DNA of 64,000 bases from Verrucomicrobiota bacterium (GTDB lineage: Bacteria; Verrucomicrobiota; Verrucomicrobiia; Limisphaerales; J093): the NCBI GenBank assembly GCA_022710935.1, contig JAKLFY010000002.1, positions 1-64,000 of the forward strand, given 5' to 3'. Position 1 is the first letter of the stretch; the number at the start of each line of letters is the position of its first letter. Under the pieces are notes generated by a model that saw only the letters and a program-made list of their open reading frames with translations, ran no database searches and had not been told where the DNA came from. Below are positions 18,974 through 64,000 of the stretch, piece by piece. The position numbers and the translations under genes are program-made.

Positions 18974-19117
18974 CGCTCAAGGCAATGCCCCAATCGCGAC
19001 TGGATTTTCGGCTCTGCACGCACGACACACCCAGCGGCGGCCGGGCGGCGAGCAACCAGCCCTGCACCAGCGCCCGGAAGCCCCCCTTTGGGACAGGATG
19101 AACAGGATTCAGAGCGC

Positions 19118-19411
19118 CGGGCCGGGGGACTCGGCCTACAAGGGAACAGACATCAGTGTTGTAGGCCGCGTGCCCTCACGCGGCGCGCGAACAGACACCG
19201 GTACAAGCGCCGGGTCAGGGGACCCGGCCTACAAGGCGACAGACACCGACGTTGTAGGCCGCGTGCCCTCACGCGGCGCGTGAACAGACACCGGTACAAG
19301 CGCCGGGTCAGGGGACCCGGCCTACAAGGCGACAGACACCGACGTTGTAGGCCGCGTGCCCTCACGCGGCGCGCGAACAGACACCGGTACAAGCGCCGGG
19401 TCAGGGGACGA
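19118..19411. repeat. Three tandem 93-bp copies of a two-hairpin repeat
   Basis: Copies start at 19161, 19254 and 19347 (the last is shortened). Each contains GGCCGCGTGCCCTCACGCGGC (hairpin CCGCGTG/CACGCGG) and GCCGGGTCAGGGGACCCGGC (hairpin CCGGGTC/GACCCGG), joined by a short linker beginning GAACAGACACCGG. A partial copy precedes them at 19118-19140. The same two hairpins occur at 33865-33980 and 53930-54045. This fills much of the gene-free stretch 18974-19658; the remainder should contain the hoxF promoter but none is obvious. The copies are nearly identical throughout, so this is not a CRISPR array. Confidence 0.85.
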
Positions 19412-57606: not shown

Positions 57607-57799
57607 GTCCGCACTATAAAGAGAGGCAATCCCAAGTCAACGCGCCGCGTCGCCAAACCGACAGGTCTCTTGACTCATTTGCCACGGATTTCATCCGGGG
57701 AGTAAATCTGATCCGGTAATTTGGCGCGCTTCGTGAGGAACCGTATGCACAGCAACTTTTTTCGTGAGATCTTCGCGGCAGTCGAATAATCTCCCAATC

Positions 57800-59296
57800 A
57801 TGCCCCAACGGCAAAGCGAACCGCCCGCCGGGAAATCGGTTTGGGACAATCGAAGCGGCGCGCGCAATCGAGGCGCATCATGCGCCCCTGGGAATCAGCC
57901 GACGCAATCCATGTCCGAGGCAGCGCCACCAGGCCCGCCTGCCGCCCGTGACGCAGCCGACACCGCGCGGGAACGCCTGCCAGCCCTGCCCACGCCCGAG
58001 GAAATCCGGGAGCGGGTGGTCGAAGTCATGCGGCAGGTTTATCCGCCAGCCCGAGCGAGTGGGAGCGCCGCGGCCAATCGGACGGTACAAGAGCCGGCGG
58101 GCACCGACGCCAACGCTTCGCCCCCGACTCGCCACTCCGCGCGATCGGACGCGAGGACGCCGGCCGACGTGATCCCCGCCCGCATGCTCAACGGGTTCGT
58201 CTATTGTCCGCGGCTGTTCTACTACAAGTTTGTCGAAGGCGTGTTCGTCGAGAGTGCGGACACCCTGCGCGGCAAGGGACTGCATCGGCGGGTGGACAAA
58301 GGCAACGGCGCCCTGCCGCCGGCGGCGACTGGCGCGTCCAAGGACGAACGCTCAACGTCCAACGTCCAACGCTCAACATGCAAAGGCCAAGGCGCGGAAA
58401 GCGCGGCACCGGCGACCGCGACCGCCGACACCGGCGAACCATCAACCATCAACCACGAACCATCAACCGACGACGTCATTCATTCCCGCTCGGTGCAGAT
58501 GGGCTCGGCCCGCCTGGGCGCCACGGCGAAGATGGACCTGATCGAGGCCCGCACGGGAGGTGACGACCTCTTCCGCGCGCTCGAAGTCTGCCCGGTGGAC
58601 TACAAGGCGGGAGCGCCCAGGGAAGGTGCCGATGGCAACGAGCTGTGGGATGCCGACAAGATGCAGCTTGGGGTGCAAGCGCTGATCCTCCGCGACAACG
58701 GCTACACCTGTTCCGAGGGAGTTACGTACTTCTCGATGGGCGGCTGGTTCTACGGCATCACCCGCGGGCACGAGTTGAAGAACGTCTTCCTGCGCATCGA
58801 GCAGTTCCGTCGGGTCCGCGACGACGCCTTCGCGCTCGAACTGAGCCGCCAGTTCGTCCACGGCAAGATCCGCAATCACCGCACGATGCTCATGCGGAAT
58901 CACCTCGAACCGCCTCCCAGCGTGGTCACCCAACTCAAGCACCTCGCGGACAAAGCGCTGACGGCCACCAGCCGCGAGGAACTCCTCGGCCTCGAAGGCG
59001 CCGCCGCCGCCGCCTACTTCGCCGAGTTCAACGGGATGCTCAAGGTCGCCGATGAACTGGCCGACGCGCGTGATCCCTGGGATGGTCAGTTGAGATTTAA
59101 CTTCGAGCACCGGAACCGGCGTCCGCCGACCGATCCCGTCAACGCGCTGCTGTCGCTCGGTTACAGCCTACCGGTTCCGCAAGGCCCTGCACCTCCAGCC
59201 TGGAGACGAGGTTTCTTTGCCATCGAGGGCGAGAAACTCGTTTTGCAACCCGGCCAACCGGCACGCGCCGGACTGTTGCCCTGCAAGTTGAGTTGA
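57800..59296 (+). pseudogene. Degenerate Cas4-Cas1 fusion, single open frame
   Basis: 498 aa from ATG at 57800; starts at 57764 (GTG) and 57911 are possible. The Cas4 half shows IPARMLNGFVYCPRLFYYKF (Cys136), ATAKMDLIEA (Asp246) and VCPVDYKAG (Asp267, Lys269). Four things are wrong compared with typical fusions: an odd Pro/Ala-rich 120-residue N-terminus; a repeat-derived insert at 182-223; a direct jump at about residue 311 from Cas4 (CSEGVTYF) to mid-Cas1 (SMGGWFYGIT), which removes the Cas4 C-terminal Fe-S cysteines and the Cas1 N-terminal domain; and loss of Cas1 after NRRPPTDPVNALLSLGYS, so catalytic Glu399 is kept but the His and Asp ligands are missing. No array or other cas gene is present. 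Unlikely to support spacer acquisition; other activity is unknown. Confidence 0.85.
58344..58468. repeat. Low-complexity repeats inside the Cas4-Cas1 gene
   Basis: Two blocks: 58344-58378 repeats variants of CAACGTCCAACG, and 58434-58468 repeats variants of AACCATCAACCA. They flank a GC-rich linker and encode DERSTSNVQRSTCKGQ and GEPSTINHEPSTDD. Neither block resembles Cas4; both look like dispersed simple repeats that entered the gene in frame. Confidence 0.7.
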
Positions 59297-59337: not shown

Positions 59338-61152
59338 ATGCGAGCGACGGCCCGACTCAACCGCACCTCGACTCTGACCGCGCGTCGGAAGGGAGGGGAT
59401 TCCGCCTTGGCGCTTGCGACGGATGAGGCGCGAAGGAAGGCTAACGGCATTCACTACACTCCTCCCTTGCTGGCGGCATACTTGGCCGAGCAAGTCATGA
59501 AGGGCCTGATAGCGGGCAGGACGCCAATCGGTGAGATTGCGGTCCTCGATCCGGCTTGCGGCGAAGGAGAATTGCTCAAGGCCATTGTCGATGCCGCTCC
59601 GCACACATGGAGAGCACGTCTTCGCCTGACGGGTTTTGACATGGATGAAAACGCTTTGGCGCGCACCCGCAGCCTGCTCGAAGATTCTGGCGTCGCCTCT
59701 GTTGACCTGCACGCGGAAGACTTTCTGTCGCATGTGGACCGCATCGAGGGTGCGTCACAAATGGACTTCCTGCGGCCGCCCGTACGGCGCGAGCAGATTC
59801 TGTTTGATGCGGCCATCTCCAATCCCCCGTACGTTCGCACTCAGATTCTGGGTTCAGTTTCGGCCCGCGAACTTGCGGCGCGGTTCGACCTGACCGGGCG
59901 TGTGGACCTGTATCACGCCTTCGTCAAGGCGATGACGTTGCTCCTTCGGGAGGGTGGAATCCTTGGCCTTCTCACATCCAACCGATTTCTCACGGTCCAG
60001 TCGGGTTACTCGATGCGGGACTGGCTCGCCAGCCAATTCAGACTTCGTCGTTTGGTTGACCTCGGCGACACCAAGCTCTTCGATGCGGCGGTATTGCCGG
60101 CGATCGTCGTCGCTGAACGCACGAGCAGTGCTGGCCCGCAGAATTGCGAGTTCATCCGTGTTTACGAGTCACCGCAATCCGGTGCTCCGGACGGCAGGGA
60201 GGAACTCTCGATTCTCGATGTCCTCGATGGGACGTATTCGGGGCTCGTTCAGGCTGGAGGAACGCGTTTTCGGGTTGAGACAGGGAAGCTGCGAATTGCG
60301 GCAGACAGCAGAACGCCGTGGGCCATGCACAGTCGCGGGGTAGATGCGTGGCTGGCGCAGGTGAAAGCCAATTCAGCGTGTGTGTTCGCTGATGTGGCAA
60401 GAATCTGCGTCGGCATCAAGACCACCGCGGATTCCGTCTTTGTCCGTGATGACTGGGAGTCGTTGCCGAGTTCCCAACGCCCCGAGCCCGAACTACTCCG
60501 GCCACTGGTCACGCATCACCTCGCCACGCGCTGGCATTTGCCAGAGAACACCGTCCGCGCCAGGCAGGTGCTTTACCCCTACGTCCGCAATGCCACCGAG
60601 CGCCAACCGGTTGACTTGGCAGACTATCCCTGCGCCCGCGCCTATCTGCTCAAGCACCGGGAACGCCTGGAAAGCAGAAGTTACGTCACGGGGGCAGGTC
60701 GGCGGTGGTATGAGGTCTGGGTCCCACACCGGCCCAGCGATTGGACTCACCCCAAACTCGCATTCCCCGACATCAGTGAATCAAACAAGTTCTTCCTTGC
60801 TGACCCGGGCTGGATCGTGAACGGAGATTGCTACTGGACCAAACTCCTGCCGGGCAAGGACTGGTCGTGGCTCATGCTCATGCTCGCCGTGGCGAATTCC
60901 TCGTTCGCGCTCACATTTTACGACACAGTTTTCCACAACAAGCTTTACTCGGGTCGCCGGCGGTTCATGAGCCAATACGTGAGCCGCTTCCCCTTGCCGA
61001 AGATGACCCGCGCGCAGGGTGTCGTCGATTTCATGCCTTCGGTCCTTGCGGCAGCAAGGCGCGAGAACTCGTTGGAATTGGCGAGGCTTGAGCGAGATCT
61101 CGATGCGCTGGTGTGGGAAGCATTTGGACTATCCAAAGAAGTCGCGCGGTAG
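59338..61152 (+). CDS. Type II N6-adenine DNA methyltransferase
   Basis: 604 aa, preceded by a strong AAGGAG. N-terminal GIHYTPPLLAAYLAEQ, SAM-binding DPACGEG (71-77), catalytic NPPY (162-165). The C-terminal half is a target-recognition region (VHGR-free, FHNKLYSGRRRFMSQYVS). Lower GC than its neighbours suggests acquisition by transfer. It is convergent with, and overlaps by 24 bases, the endonuclease gene. Protects DNA at the site cut by the partner; the recognition sequence is not predictable. Confidence 0.9.
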   Translation: MRATARLNRTSTLTARRKGGDSALALATDEARRKANGIHYTPPLLAAYLAEQVMKGLIAGRTPIGEIAVLDPACGEGELLKAIVDAAPHTWRARLRLTGFDMDENALARTRSLLEDSGVASVDLHAEDFLSHVDRIEGASQMDFLRPPVRREQILFDAAISNPPYVRTQILGSVSARELAARFDLTGRVDLYHAFVKAMTLLLREGGILGLLTSNRFLTVQSGYSMRDWLASQFRLRRLVDLGDTKLFDAAVLPAIVVAERTSSAGPQNCEFIRVYESPQSGAPDGREELSILDVLDGTYSGLVQAGGTRFRVETGKLRIAADSRTPWAMHSRGVDAWLAQVKANSACVFADVARICVGIKTTADSVFVRDDWESLPSSQRPEPELLRPLVTHHLATRWHLPENTVRARQVLYPYVRNATERQPVDLADYPCARAYLLKHRERLESRSYVTGAGRRWYEVWVPHRPSDWTHPKLAFPDISESNKFFLADPGWIVNGDCYWTKLLPGKDWSWLMLMLAVANSSFALTFYDTVFHNKLYSGRRRFMSQYVSRFPLPKMTRAQGVVDFMPSVLAAARRENSLELARLERDLDALVWEAFGLSKEVAR

Positions 61153-62172
61153 CGGAATCTGGAGCTTCGCATTGACCACCTTGCCCTCAAACCGCTGGAA
61201 GAACGAGAAGAAGTCAGCACCGCGAGCCAACACCAGGTGTTCGATTTCCACTTCGTCTCCAACGGACCTTCCGTAGAACACTGCGTAACGAATGTCGCAA
61301 TGCCGCACCCGCGAAAACCACTCCAGCGGTGTCGCGTCATCCGGCGACACCAAACCCAGGTCGATTGTCGTGGCTGTTTGCAGTTTCACTTCCGTCAACT
61401 GTTCCAGCACGTCCGGGAAACTGCCGCTGTCTGCGGATTCCGCCATGCCAAGCGTCGCGCACACCGCCCGGTGCAACGCGGCTCCCCGGTTGCGCTCTTG
61501 GTCAAGACCGGGATCTGACAGTCGCGTGCCCACCAGCCTCAGCAACTGCCTGTAAAGGGCTTCAGCAGGAAGGAACACGTTGAAGTCCACCTCAGAGTGT
61601 CGATTGGTGCGCCGGGGCAACTTCAATTTGCGATTGGGCAACGCCGCAATTGCGTCTTGAACGGAATACGCATCCGATCGTGAAACCAACACCGATTCCG
61701 TGATCGGAGCGCGGCTCTTGGCTTGGTACTTCCGTGTCAGCGTTCCCGTGGTGTCCAGCTTCGCCAACATTTCACCCGTTACGACTCGGACGCCCACGAC
61801 CTTCGAGACCTCATCCAGCCGGATGATGACATACCGCCGTGTCGGCACGACTTCCTCATTCCAGATTTGCAGGTTGTTGGACTTCTGAACGTAAGTGTCA
61901 AAGTCCTGTCCGGGAAATCGCGGTTTGGACTTCCGGAAGGACTGTGGGACTGGATACCCAAGAATCTCGCAGATCCTGGATTTCAAGACCTTGGAGCGCG
62001 TGCGCAGCGGGTAGTTCAAGTCCAGTCCGGCCAACCCAACGCGCAGAACCGCTTCCAAGTCGCCGCCCGCGAGGAAGAAATCAGGCGTGTCATGCAGTGC
62101 ATCGTAGATGCTCTTGCCAGACCTGGCGATGCAACCGCTACTACCGACGACGGACGAGCAATCTGGCATCAC
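61129..62172 (-). CDS. Probable type II restriction endonuclease
   Basis: 347 aa. A PD-(D/E)xK-type site is plausible at FPDVLEQLTEVKLQ (Pro253-Asp254, Glu261, Lys263). The rest is not a family I recognise, but the place between a methyltransferase and a C protein, 3 bp after the C-protein stop, makes an endonuclease very likely. It is co-transcribed with the C gene and its end overlaps the methyltransferase end. Confidence 0.8.
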   Translation of the reverse strand: MMPDCSSVVGSSGCIARSGKSIYDALHDTPDFFLAGGDLEAVLRVGLAGLDLNYPLRTRSKVLKSRICEILGYPVPQSFRKSKPRFPGQDFDTYVQKSNNLQIWNEEVVPTRRYVIIRLDEVSKVVGVRVVTGEMLAKLDTTGTLTRKYQAKSRAPITESVLVSRSDAYSVQDAIAALPNRKLKLPRRTNRHSEVDFNVFLPAEALYRQLLRLVGTRLSDPGLDQERNRGAALHRAVCATLGMAESADSGSFPDVLEQLTEVKLQTATTIDLGLVSPDDATPLEWFSRVRHCDIRYAVFYGRSVGDEVEIEHLVLARGADFFSFFQRFEGKVVNAKLQIPLPRDFFG

Positions 62173-62175
62173 GTG

Positions 62176-62394
62176 TCACTCCTTGGTCAGCAAGGCCACG
62201 GGTGAGACACCAAAAGCAGATGCGATGGTATCGAGCGTGGCGAGAGTGATGTTCCGCTCACCGCGTTCCACGGCACCGATGTATGTCCGGTGCAAGTCGC
62301 ATTCTTCAGCGCAGACCTCCTGCGACCATTTCCTCTGGAGCCTGAGCCGCTTCACATTTGCGGCCACAATGCTGGCAGAATTCTGACGTGGCAT
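62176..62394 (-). CDS. Restriction-modification controller (C) protein, XRE family
   Basis: 72 aa with a helix-turn-helix (WSQEVCAEECDLHRTYIGAV), typical of C proteins, which first allow methyltransferase to accumulate and then switch on the endonuclease. The gene lies directly upstream of the endonuclease gene. A C-box-like operator is found at 62417-62441. Confidence 0.88.
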   Translation of the reverse strand: MPRQNSASIVAANVKRLRLQRKWSQEVCAEECDLHRTYIGAVERGERNITLATLDTIASAFGVSPVALLTKE

Positions 62395-62441: not shown

Positions 62442-62758
62442 AGCAGAGACAGGCCGTAGAGAAACCCCGCAGAGTCAGCAACGGACGGTAGGAAATGTGG
62501 TGGAACGCGGCGGTGTTCACCGCCAAGGCGGGCGGCAAGTGCGGGCTGTTCATTCACGAACTCGCGAAGGGGCGGATGCCAACTTGATCCCTTTTCTTGC
62601 CGAATCAACGATCCAGCGGCGTGACACCGTGCCACTGCGAGGGGTGCGTCCTGGCCCACGGGACCCCTTTCCGGTGATTGGTCTCGTTCGGCACGTCAGC
62701 GCGGCCCCGTTGAAACCATCGCTTCCAGATGCGATCGGAGCCTTGGCCCACGGCCTCT

Positions 62759-62778
62759 CCGCGCTCACGTGAGCGCGG
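62759..62778. terminator. Perfect 20-bp palindrome in gene-free stretch before the GH-like gene end
   Basis: CCGCGCTCACGTGAGCGCGG reads the same on both strands and ends 11 bp after the stop of the minus-strand GH-like gene. As RNA its arms would leave only a tight turn. There is no T-run, so it may be a repeat or protein site instead of a terminator. The rest of 62395-62789 holds the C-box and otherwise nothing I can recognise, including no Cas1 or Cas2 remnant. Confidence 0.3.
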
Positions 62779-62789
62779 CGACCGACACC

Positions 62790-64000
62790 CTATCGGGGCC
62801 AGACGCTGACGACATCGTTGGCGCGGGAGGAGGGGGTGATTTTCAGACGTTCCAGGCGGCCCTGGCGATAGACGCCTTCGACGGTGGTCTGGAACGGGGC
62901 GTGGAGTTTGAAGGCGACATCCCAGTCCTCGGGCCAGGCCGGCAAGAGCAGAATGCGCCGTCCTTCGCATTGGAGCAGCATGGTCTGGAGCGCCATCAGC
63001 CCGTTCGCCCCGTGATCCTGGTCGGGAATCCAGTCGAAGTTGGGTCCCCAGAAGGCGGGAAAGCGGCTGCCGTCATGTTTGGTGGCGAGGCGATTGACGA
63101 GCATCCGCCGCGCTTCCCCGGTCAAGCCCAGGTACGCCGCCTGGGTCTCGTCCTGCTGCCACCCGCGGTTGCCCTTGAACAGGCGGGCGGCGAAGGTGCG
63201 CCGGGCCACTTCGAGTTCGGGCTTGCCCAATCCGAACGCGCGGAATGGGAAGATGGCGTAAAGCTCGGGATTCTCCATGTTCGACCGCACGGCGAACGTC
63301 TGGGCCGGCGCGATCAGGTCCTGATCGTCAAGCTGCCGTCGGGGAATGGGCGGCAGCGCGGCCCGGAGCGATTGCCAGGCGGTGCGGCGGGACGTTCCCA
63401 CGACCTCGGAGGGGAGGCTCAGCAGCCGATCAAGCGTCACGTGCAGACCGGCGATCTCGGGTGTCGGGTTTTCGCATTCCCACCATGTCTCCAGGGCCTG
63501 GGAGGGCTTGAGCCACAGGCGGCCACCCGCATCGCGCGGATAATGGCGGTCGTAAAATCCAATCACGGCCTCGGCGTGATCGAGCAGCGTGTGGCGCAGG
63601 AACTCGTCATCCCCCGTGAACGCGTGGTAATCGAGCATCAGGGCGAGCAGTTCCAACCCGCTGGACCAGTGGTAACGGATGTAGCGGTTCTCGGTGACGC
63701 CGAGCGGCAGGTCGGCGCGATTCCAGCCGTAGCCCATGCCCCCGTTGTGATAGACGCCCCAGAAGTGCATCGTCTCCGGAAAGAAAGCGCCGTCGTGCTG
63801 GTGATAGACCCGTGTGCGCGCGCGGGCCAGCGGGAGGGCGTCCCGGTACATCCTGAAGAGCGGTTGCAGCAGATCGAAGTCGCCGCTGGCCAGCATGGGC
63901 CAGTAGAGGAGGCGGGTATTCTGGAACCAGTAACATCCACCCCACTGACGGTAGTCGGGGTCGAACTGGCCCGGCACCTCGACGGTGAAGAGCGAGCCGT
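62790..64000 (-). CDS. Glycoside-hydrolase-like protein, N-terminus cut by window edge
   Basis: At least 403 aa; the frame is open to the right edge. The visible part has an (alpha/alpha)6-barrel look: DPDYRQWGGCYWFQNTRLLY, MLASGDFDLL, WGVYHNGGMGYGWNRADLPL, TWWECENPTPEIAGLH, and near the end NFDWIPDQDHGANGLMALQT and LLLPAWPEDWDVAFKLHAPF, followed by a beta sandwich. This resembles GH95-like and related families that act on fucosylated or other plant and algal glycans. Catalytic residues cannot be assigned with confidence. Confidence 0.75.
   Translation of the reverse strand, partial: GSLFTVEVPGQFDPDYRQWGGCYWFQNTRLLYWPMLASGDFDLLQPLFRMYRDALPLARARTRVYHQHDGAFFPETMHFWGVYHNGGMGYGWNRADLPLGVTENRYIRYHWSSGLELLALMLDYHAFTGDDEFLRHTLLDHAEAVIGFYDRHYPRDAGGRLWLKPSQALETWWECENPTPEIAGLHVTLDRLLSLPSEVVGTSRRTAWQSLRAALPPIPRRQLDDQDLIAPAQTFAVRSNMENPELYAIFPFRAFGLGKPELEVARRTFAARLFKGNRGWQQDETQAAYLGLTGEARRMLVNRLATKHDGSRFPAFWGPNFDWIPDQDHGANGLMALQTMLLQCEGRRILLLPAWPEDWDVAFKLHAPFQTTVEGVYRQGRLERLKITPSSRANDVVSVWPR

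Follow-up and report, generated by a model that had tools for sequence, protein, structure and literature searches.

In the characterised type I-G fusion proteins MbCas4/1 and GsCas4/1, both domains are complete and work with Cas2, and for a characterised protein of this type the catalytic Glu of each domain is known to be needed (PMC10504553). An intact gene of this kind, encoding a 740-aa Cas4-Cas1 protein (L014:10163-12385(-)), is carried by Verrucomicrobia bacterium ADurb.Bin006 (G001, contig MWFF01000192.1), the one other same-genus genome in our comparison set, referred to below as the sister. Judging by its sequence, this intact enzyme would trim prespacers with its Cas4 part and integrate them together with Cas2 through its Cas1 part; other type I-G Cas4/1 proteins are known to be active. 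The sister I-G locus is complete, being comprised of cas4-1, csb1 (Cas7g), csb2 (Cas5-6g), a gene for a four-helix protein, cas3g, a Cas3-extension/Cas8g gene, cas2, and an array in which 13 repeats recur every 71-74 nt. The four-helix bundle protein is encoded between csb2 and cas3g (L014:6050-6763, minus strand). In addition, an uncharacterised 167-aa frame (L014:12382-12885, minus strand), for which no family match was found in PADLOC or NCBIfam, overlaps the start codon of cas4-1.

The window, i.e. the whole stretch analysed here, comprises the first 64,000 nucleotides of contig JAKLFY010000002.1 of a Verrucomicrobiota bacterium. It contains a single open frame of 498 codons on the plus strand, running from the ATG at 57800 to 59296; if an upstream in-frame GTG at 57764 is used as the start, the frame has 510 codons. 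In the profile searches the product matches NF049935 (Cas4g/Cas1g) with 276.5 bits, in three stretches, and PF01867 (Cas1) with 120 bits over profile positions 60-198 of 283 only, in agreement with the preliminary description of this DNA, which had reported Cas4 and Cas1 features in one frame. The best NCBIfam family is Cas4g/Cas1g, and the best PADLOC family is Cas1g. The score lies below the curated whole-protein cut-off of NF049935 (560 bits), while the intact sister protein lies above it (701.7 bits). The kept parts are 80-95% identical at the protein level to the intact I-G gene product, and the domain order is the same. Hence the frame shares descent with type I-G Cas4-Cas1 genes and represents a Cas4g-Cas1g fusion gene of type I-G in truncated form.

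At the DNA level the window copy aligns with the sister gene in two collinear pieces, 57856-58722 (87% identity) and 58721-59169 (94% identity), both on the plus strand, and lacks the 474 bp that lie between them in the sister. The first piece comprises the N-terminal extension and the N-terminal and central parts of Cas4, and keeps the first Fe-S Cys as well as the His, Asp, Glu, Lys and Gln motifs. Between the Cas4 motifs, at 58332-58480 (plus strand), it holds an insert that goes back to a dispersed repeat (unit near ACGTCCAACGCTCAACATC). The preliminary description had listed this insert (residues 182-223) and the N-terminal extension among the changes suffered by the gene, but both are already present in the intact sister gene; therefore they are older than the decay and are not lesions of the window copy. 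Other family members, too, have long variable stretches at the positions of the extension and the insert. A foreign origin of the N-terminal extension was considered and set aside: with the ATG 57800 as the start, the N-terminus is almost as long as that of the sister and weakly similar to it, and an old start is more likely. In the sister, the dispersed repeat (near ACGTCCAACGCTCAACATC) lies within the coding sequence of the intact Cas4-Cas1 gene (L014:11805-11848), representing an in-frame repeat insertion.

The large lesions of the window copy are thus two, a 474-bp in-frame deletion and a 3' truncation, to which a 9-nt length difference inside the insert is added. Compared with the sister gene, 158 internal codons and about 130 C-terminal residues are missing. 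The deletion junction (58719-58724, plus strand) joins the GVIYY codons of Cas4 to the PVTYF codons of Cas1, and the resulting jump from Cas4 to Cas1 falls at residue 307-308, close to residue 311 where it had originally been placed. The two stretches are short and similar to each other, and this resemblance may have caused the deletion; as they share a codon phase, the reading frame is preserved across the deletion. Cas4 has one N-terminal and three C-terminal Fe-S cysteines; the deletion takes out the latter three (CPRC...C), so that the N-terminal Cys alone is left, and the N-terminal domain of Cas1 is removed along with them. The C-terminal cysteine cluster is thereby lost, as the preliminary description implied. 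Moreover, the window copy has changes (E132G and E143K, numbered from the ATG 57800) at two Cas4 positions, the first of which carries Glu in all 78 homologues and the second in 76 of the 78, while the window-specific changes in the Cas1 part sit at variable positions.

The second lesion concerns the metal ligands of Cas1 (Glu, His and Asp). The kept middle part of Cas1 (58721-59169) includes the Glu region LEGAAAAAYF; homology to the sister stops after 59169, before the His/Asp region (GFYH...LALDVMEEF in the intact sister), which is absent. The alignment with the intact sister thus bears out the earlier reading that the frame stops short of the His and Asp ligands. Its last 40 or so codons and the stop come from the relic of a MazE/AbrB-type antitoxin gene (59170-59293, plus strand), which the open frame enters in a phase other than that of the antitoxin. 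If one frameshift is read through, this relic matches PF04014 with 24.6 bits (E 2.5e-5), just under the cut-off of 24.7, and its DNA is 86% identical to another antitoxin-like frame of this genome, an intact one (G000:C50:11347-11436). As in MbCas4/1 and GsCas4/1, the catalytic Glu regions of Cas4 and Cas1 have equivalents in the remnant, as judged by motif, but unlike these proteins, whose domains are complete and act with Cas2, the window locus lacks the cysteine cluster, the Cas1 His and Asp, and cas2 (PMC10504553).

The surroundings of the frame are those of a gutted I-G locus. Upstream lie fur and dnaG, and synteny with the sister extends up to 57651 and ends there. Downstream, two CRISPR repeat relics on the plus strand (62681-62716 and 62755-62790) flank a spacer-like stretch of 38 nt (62717-62754), giving a repeat period of 74, as compared to 71-74 in the sister array. 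The relics are identical to the sister I-G repeat at 27 and 28 of 36 positions, respectively, the first 24 or so positions of the second one being exact. They are the two best matches to this repeat in the whole window, 20 shuffles of which reach 21-26 of 36. The array relic (62681-62790) has the orientation relative to cas4-1 that is expected, and is collinear with the sister locus. None of cas3g, Cas8g, csb1, csb2 and cas2 was found in the window, and at the DNA level no intact csb1, csb2, cas3 or cas2 of the sister locus was found anywhere in the genome, only fragments on contigs C112 and C38. The relics in the window are therefore what is left of both ends of an I-G locus that has lost its middle. 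Neither the position of the gene, with an array relic at the far end of the gutted locus, nor its MazE-derived tail was part of the preliminary description.

The space between the two ends is occupied by a type II restriction-modification (R-M) system (59338-62394), in which the genes for the methyltransferase, the restriction endonuclease and the controller protein stand together. The DNA N6-adenine methyltransferase gene (59338-61152, plus strand) is full-length, with an Eco57I-type domain (PADLOC MTase_II, 558 bits, model positions 9-574 of 579; PF07669). The endonuclease gene (61129-62172, minus strand), convergent with it, is full-length relative to its model (PADLOC REase_II, 346 bits, positions 22-357 of 359), and the controller (C) protein gene (62176-62394, minus strand) was recognised by a profile match to HTH_3. 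Sequence-specific cleavage and methylation are the putative activities of this system. A search for a solved structural relative of the endonuclease found none. The GC content of the R-M genes is 58-60%, compared to 65% in the window. A DNA search of 58 relatives yielded no close copy, the matches being one 67% stretch in G046 and, in G032, two short ones of about 76%; this fits acquisition from outside, whatever the source, and the system was probably acquired horizontally. Among the papers listed by a literature search, none described an R-M system inside a decayed I-G locus.

Further relics are present in the same genome and in the family. A second, more deleted I-G relic of the genome (G000:C38:11499-12491; L027) consists of collinear pieces of cas2/Cas8g, cas3 and cas4-1, with short shared stretches at the joints, and adjoins a frame of the 167-aa type that overlaps cas4-1 in the sister. 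We considered whether this relic and the one in the window are halves of one split locus, as their kept cas4-1 pieces hardly overlap, but this is unproven: C38 keeps so little of cas4-1 that the lack of overlap is not telling, and both relics have recognisable sequence of the N-terminal region. Decayed copies in the family include a frameshifted one (G004:C1:494567-496566) and two fragments in G013 (G013:C156:3065-3413), while other family members carry intact Cas4-Cas1 genes. Decay of Cas4-Cas1 is thus common in the family. Like the window copy, the G004, G013 and C38 copies derive from this gene or locus and have been broken by deletions or by a frameshift. Their lesions are different ones, and it is by chance that a single frame has remained open in the window copy.

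The genome also has an apparently intact type I-C system on contig C1 (L004/L005, about 173973-191000), with genes for Cas3, Cas5, Cas8c, Cas1c and Cas2c and an array of more than 80 repeats. A further partial Cas1 match is found on the same contig (C1:189281-189484). Elsewhere in the window, at 19113-19409, there is a tandem array of a palindromic GC-rich unit of 93 bp (3.2 copies, 94% matches), and similar repeats appear to be dispersed in the genus.

An intact frame of 498 codons after so many changes had been regarded as unexpected for neutral decay. Our analysis gives no grounds for this: the open frame is unsurprising even under neutrality, because two of the changes that had been counted are ancestral, the lone internal deletion is a multiple of three, and few mutations create stops. 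In particular, a single internal deletion has a one-in-three chance of staying in frame, only about 2-3% of random point mutations produce a stop in this GC-rich sequence, and a copy that had evolved neutrally ever since the two lineages separated would still escape substitution stops with a probability of about 0.34.

In pairwise comparison of the window copy with the sister, dN/dS is 0.08 for the Cas1 part, and Cas4 gives 0.12 in its central and 0.30 in its first part; the value for dnaG is 0.15. With changes assigned to branches by outgroups, which leaves small counts, the window branch has 9 nonsynonymous and 13 synonymous substitutions. The sister branch has 10 and 26, respectively, and the two do not differ significantly (P 0.39). 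In a mixed model the neutral fraction of the window branch is 0.14 (interval 0-0.56), and the counts of this branch alone reject neutrality across its whole length (P about 0.004), so that either a short period of decay or some continued constraint must be assumed. This pattern suggests a gene constrained until recently, with room, given the small counts, for some remaining constraint.

Taken together, the locus very probably represents simple recent decay, the frame being a pseudogene of a type I-G Cas4g-Cas1g adaptation gene. This is supported by the intact same-genus homologue in its complete locus and the collinear alignment with it, the lack of intact csb1, csb2, cas3 and cas2 in the DNA search of the genome, the array relic, the MazE tail, the E132G and E143K replacements, the branch counts with their estimated neutral fraction, the other decayed copies and the GC content of the R-M genes; against it stand the low pairwise dN/dS values of Cas1 and central Cas4, which are like that of dnaG, and the rejection of neutrality over the whole branch. 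The preliminary description had offered both decay that happens to stay open and a domesticated product, and the first of these is the one supported. It had also named an intact gene in the genus alongside broken copies in sisters as a sign of simple decay; this pattern is seen in large part, the intact gene being of the same genus and the broken copies coming from family relatives. Under recent decay, the in-frame deletion would have removed the cysteine cluster of Cas4 together with the Cas1 N-terminal domain, a second break would have removed the His/Asp end of Cas1 and joined the frame to the MazE relic, and csb1, csb2, cas3, Cas8g, cas2 and nearly all of the array would have been lost, with the type II R-M system now in their place. 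That the frame has stayed open is explained by the recency of the loss and by a deletion length that is a multiple of three. The product, if made at all, should be incapable of adaptation.

The shortened protein (Cas4 core, Cas1 core and MazE-derived tail) could also have been selected for a new role, e.g. a DNA-binding or inhibitory one. The frame open across 498 codons, the low pairwise dN/dS in the kept Cas1 and central Cas4 parts, and the rejection of neutrality over the whole branch agree with such a role, but we consider it very unlikely. The low pairwise values are governed mainly by the period that preceded the deletion, and substitutions have hit two nearly invariant glutamates of Cas4. 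The protein also lacks three of its four Fe-S cysteines as well as the N-terminal domain and the His/Asp ligands of Cas1, and it ends in a frameshifted antitoxin relic. Moreover, no homologue with the same junction was found in 14 family genomes or among the 80 best database relatives, the latter all reaching or nearly reaching the C-terminus. That the shortened Cas4-Cas1 is expressed and has been selected for a new function since the loss of the I-G locus is most improbable; if true, a CRISPR adaptation enzyme would have turned into something else. A reduced enzyme working with the Cas1-Cas2 of the type I-C locus, with its Cas1c, Cas2c and long array, has a negligible probability: that locus has adaptation genes of its own, the remnant is devoid of the cysteine cluster and the Cas1 ligands, and there is no precedent among the relatives examined. 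The junctions are known from one contig of a draft assembly, which comprises 259 contigs and has an estimated contamination of 4.3%, and there are repeats within the locus, all of which could point to reads of different strains or loci having been joined. Such an error is nevertheless highly improbable, since the sides of the deletion junction share only a few bases, too short for usual assembly graphs, and the array remnant, the MazE relic, the changes at invariant sites and the lack of a full-length I-G gene elsewhere in the genome independently agree with real decay. The remaining uncertainty comes mainly from the draft assembly and from the junction being known in this one genome.

The frame is thus very probably a product of ordinary gene decay, known in kind, and not a new protein. 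Its length in itself is weak evidence of function, as a long open frame can outlast decay where one in-frame deletion is the sole lesion. The locus is a clear example of the loss of a CRISPR-Cas locus, in which an R-M system stands between the remains of both ends, in a genome that still has an apparently intact type I-C system.
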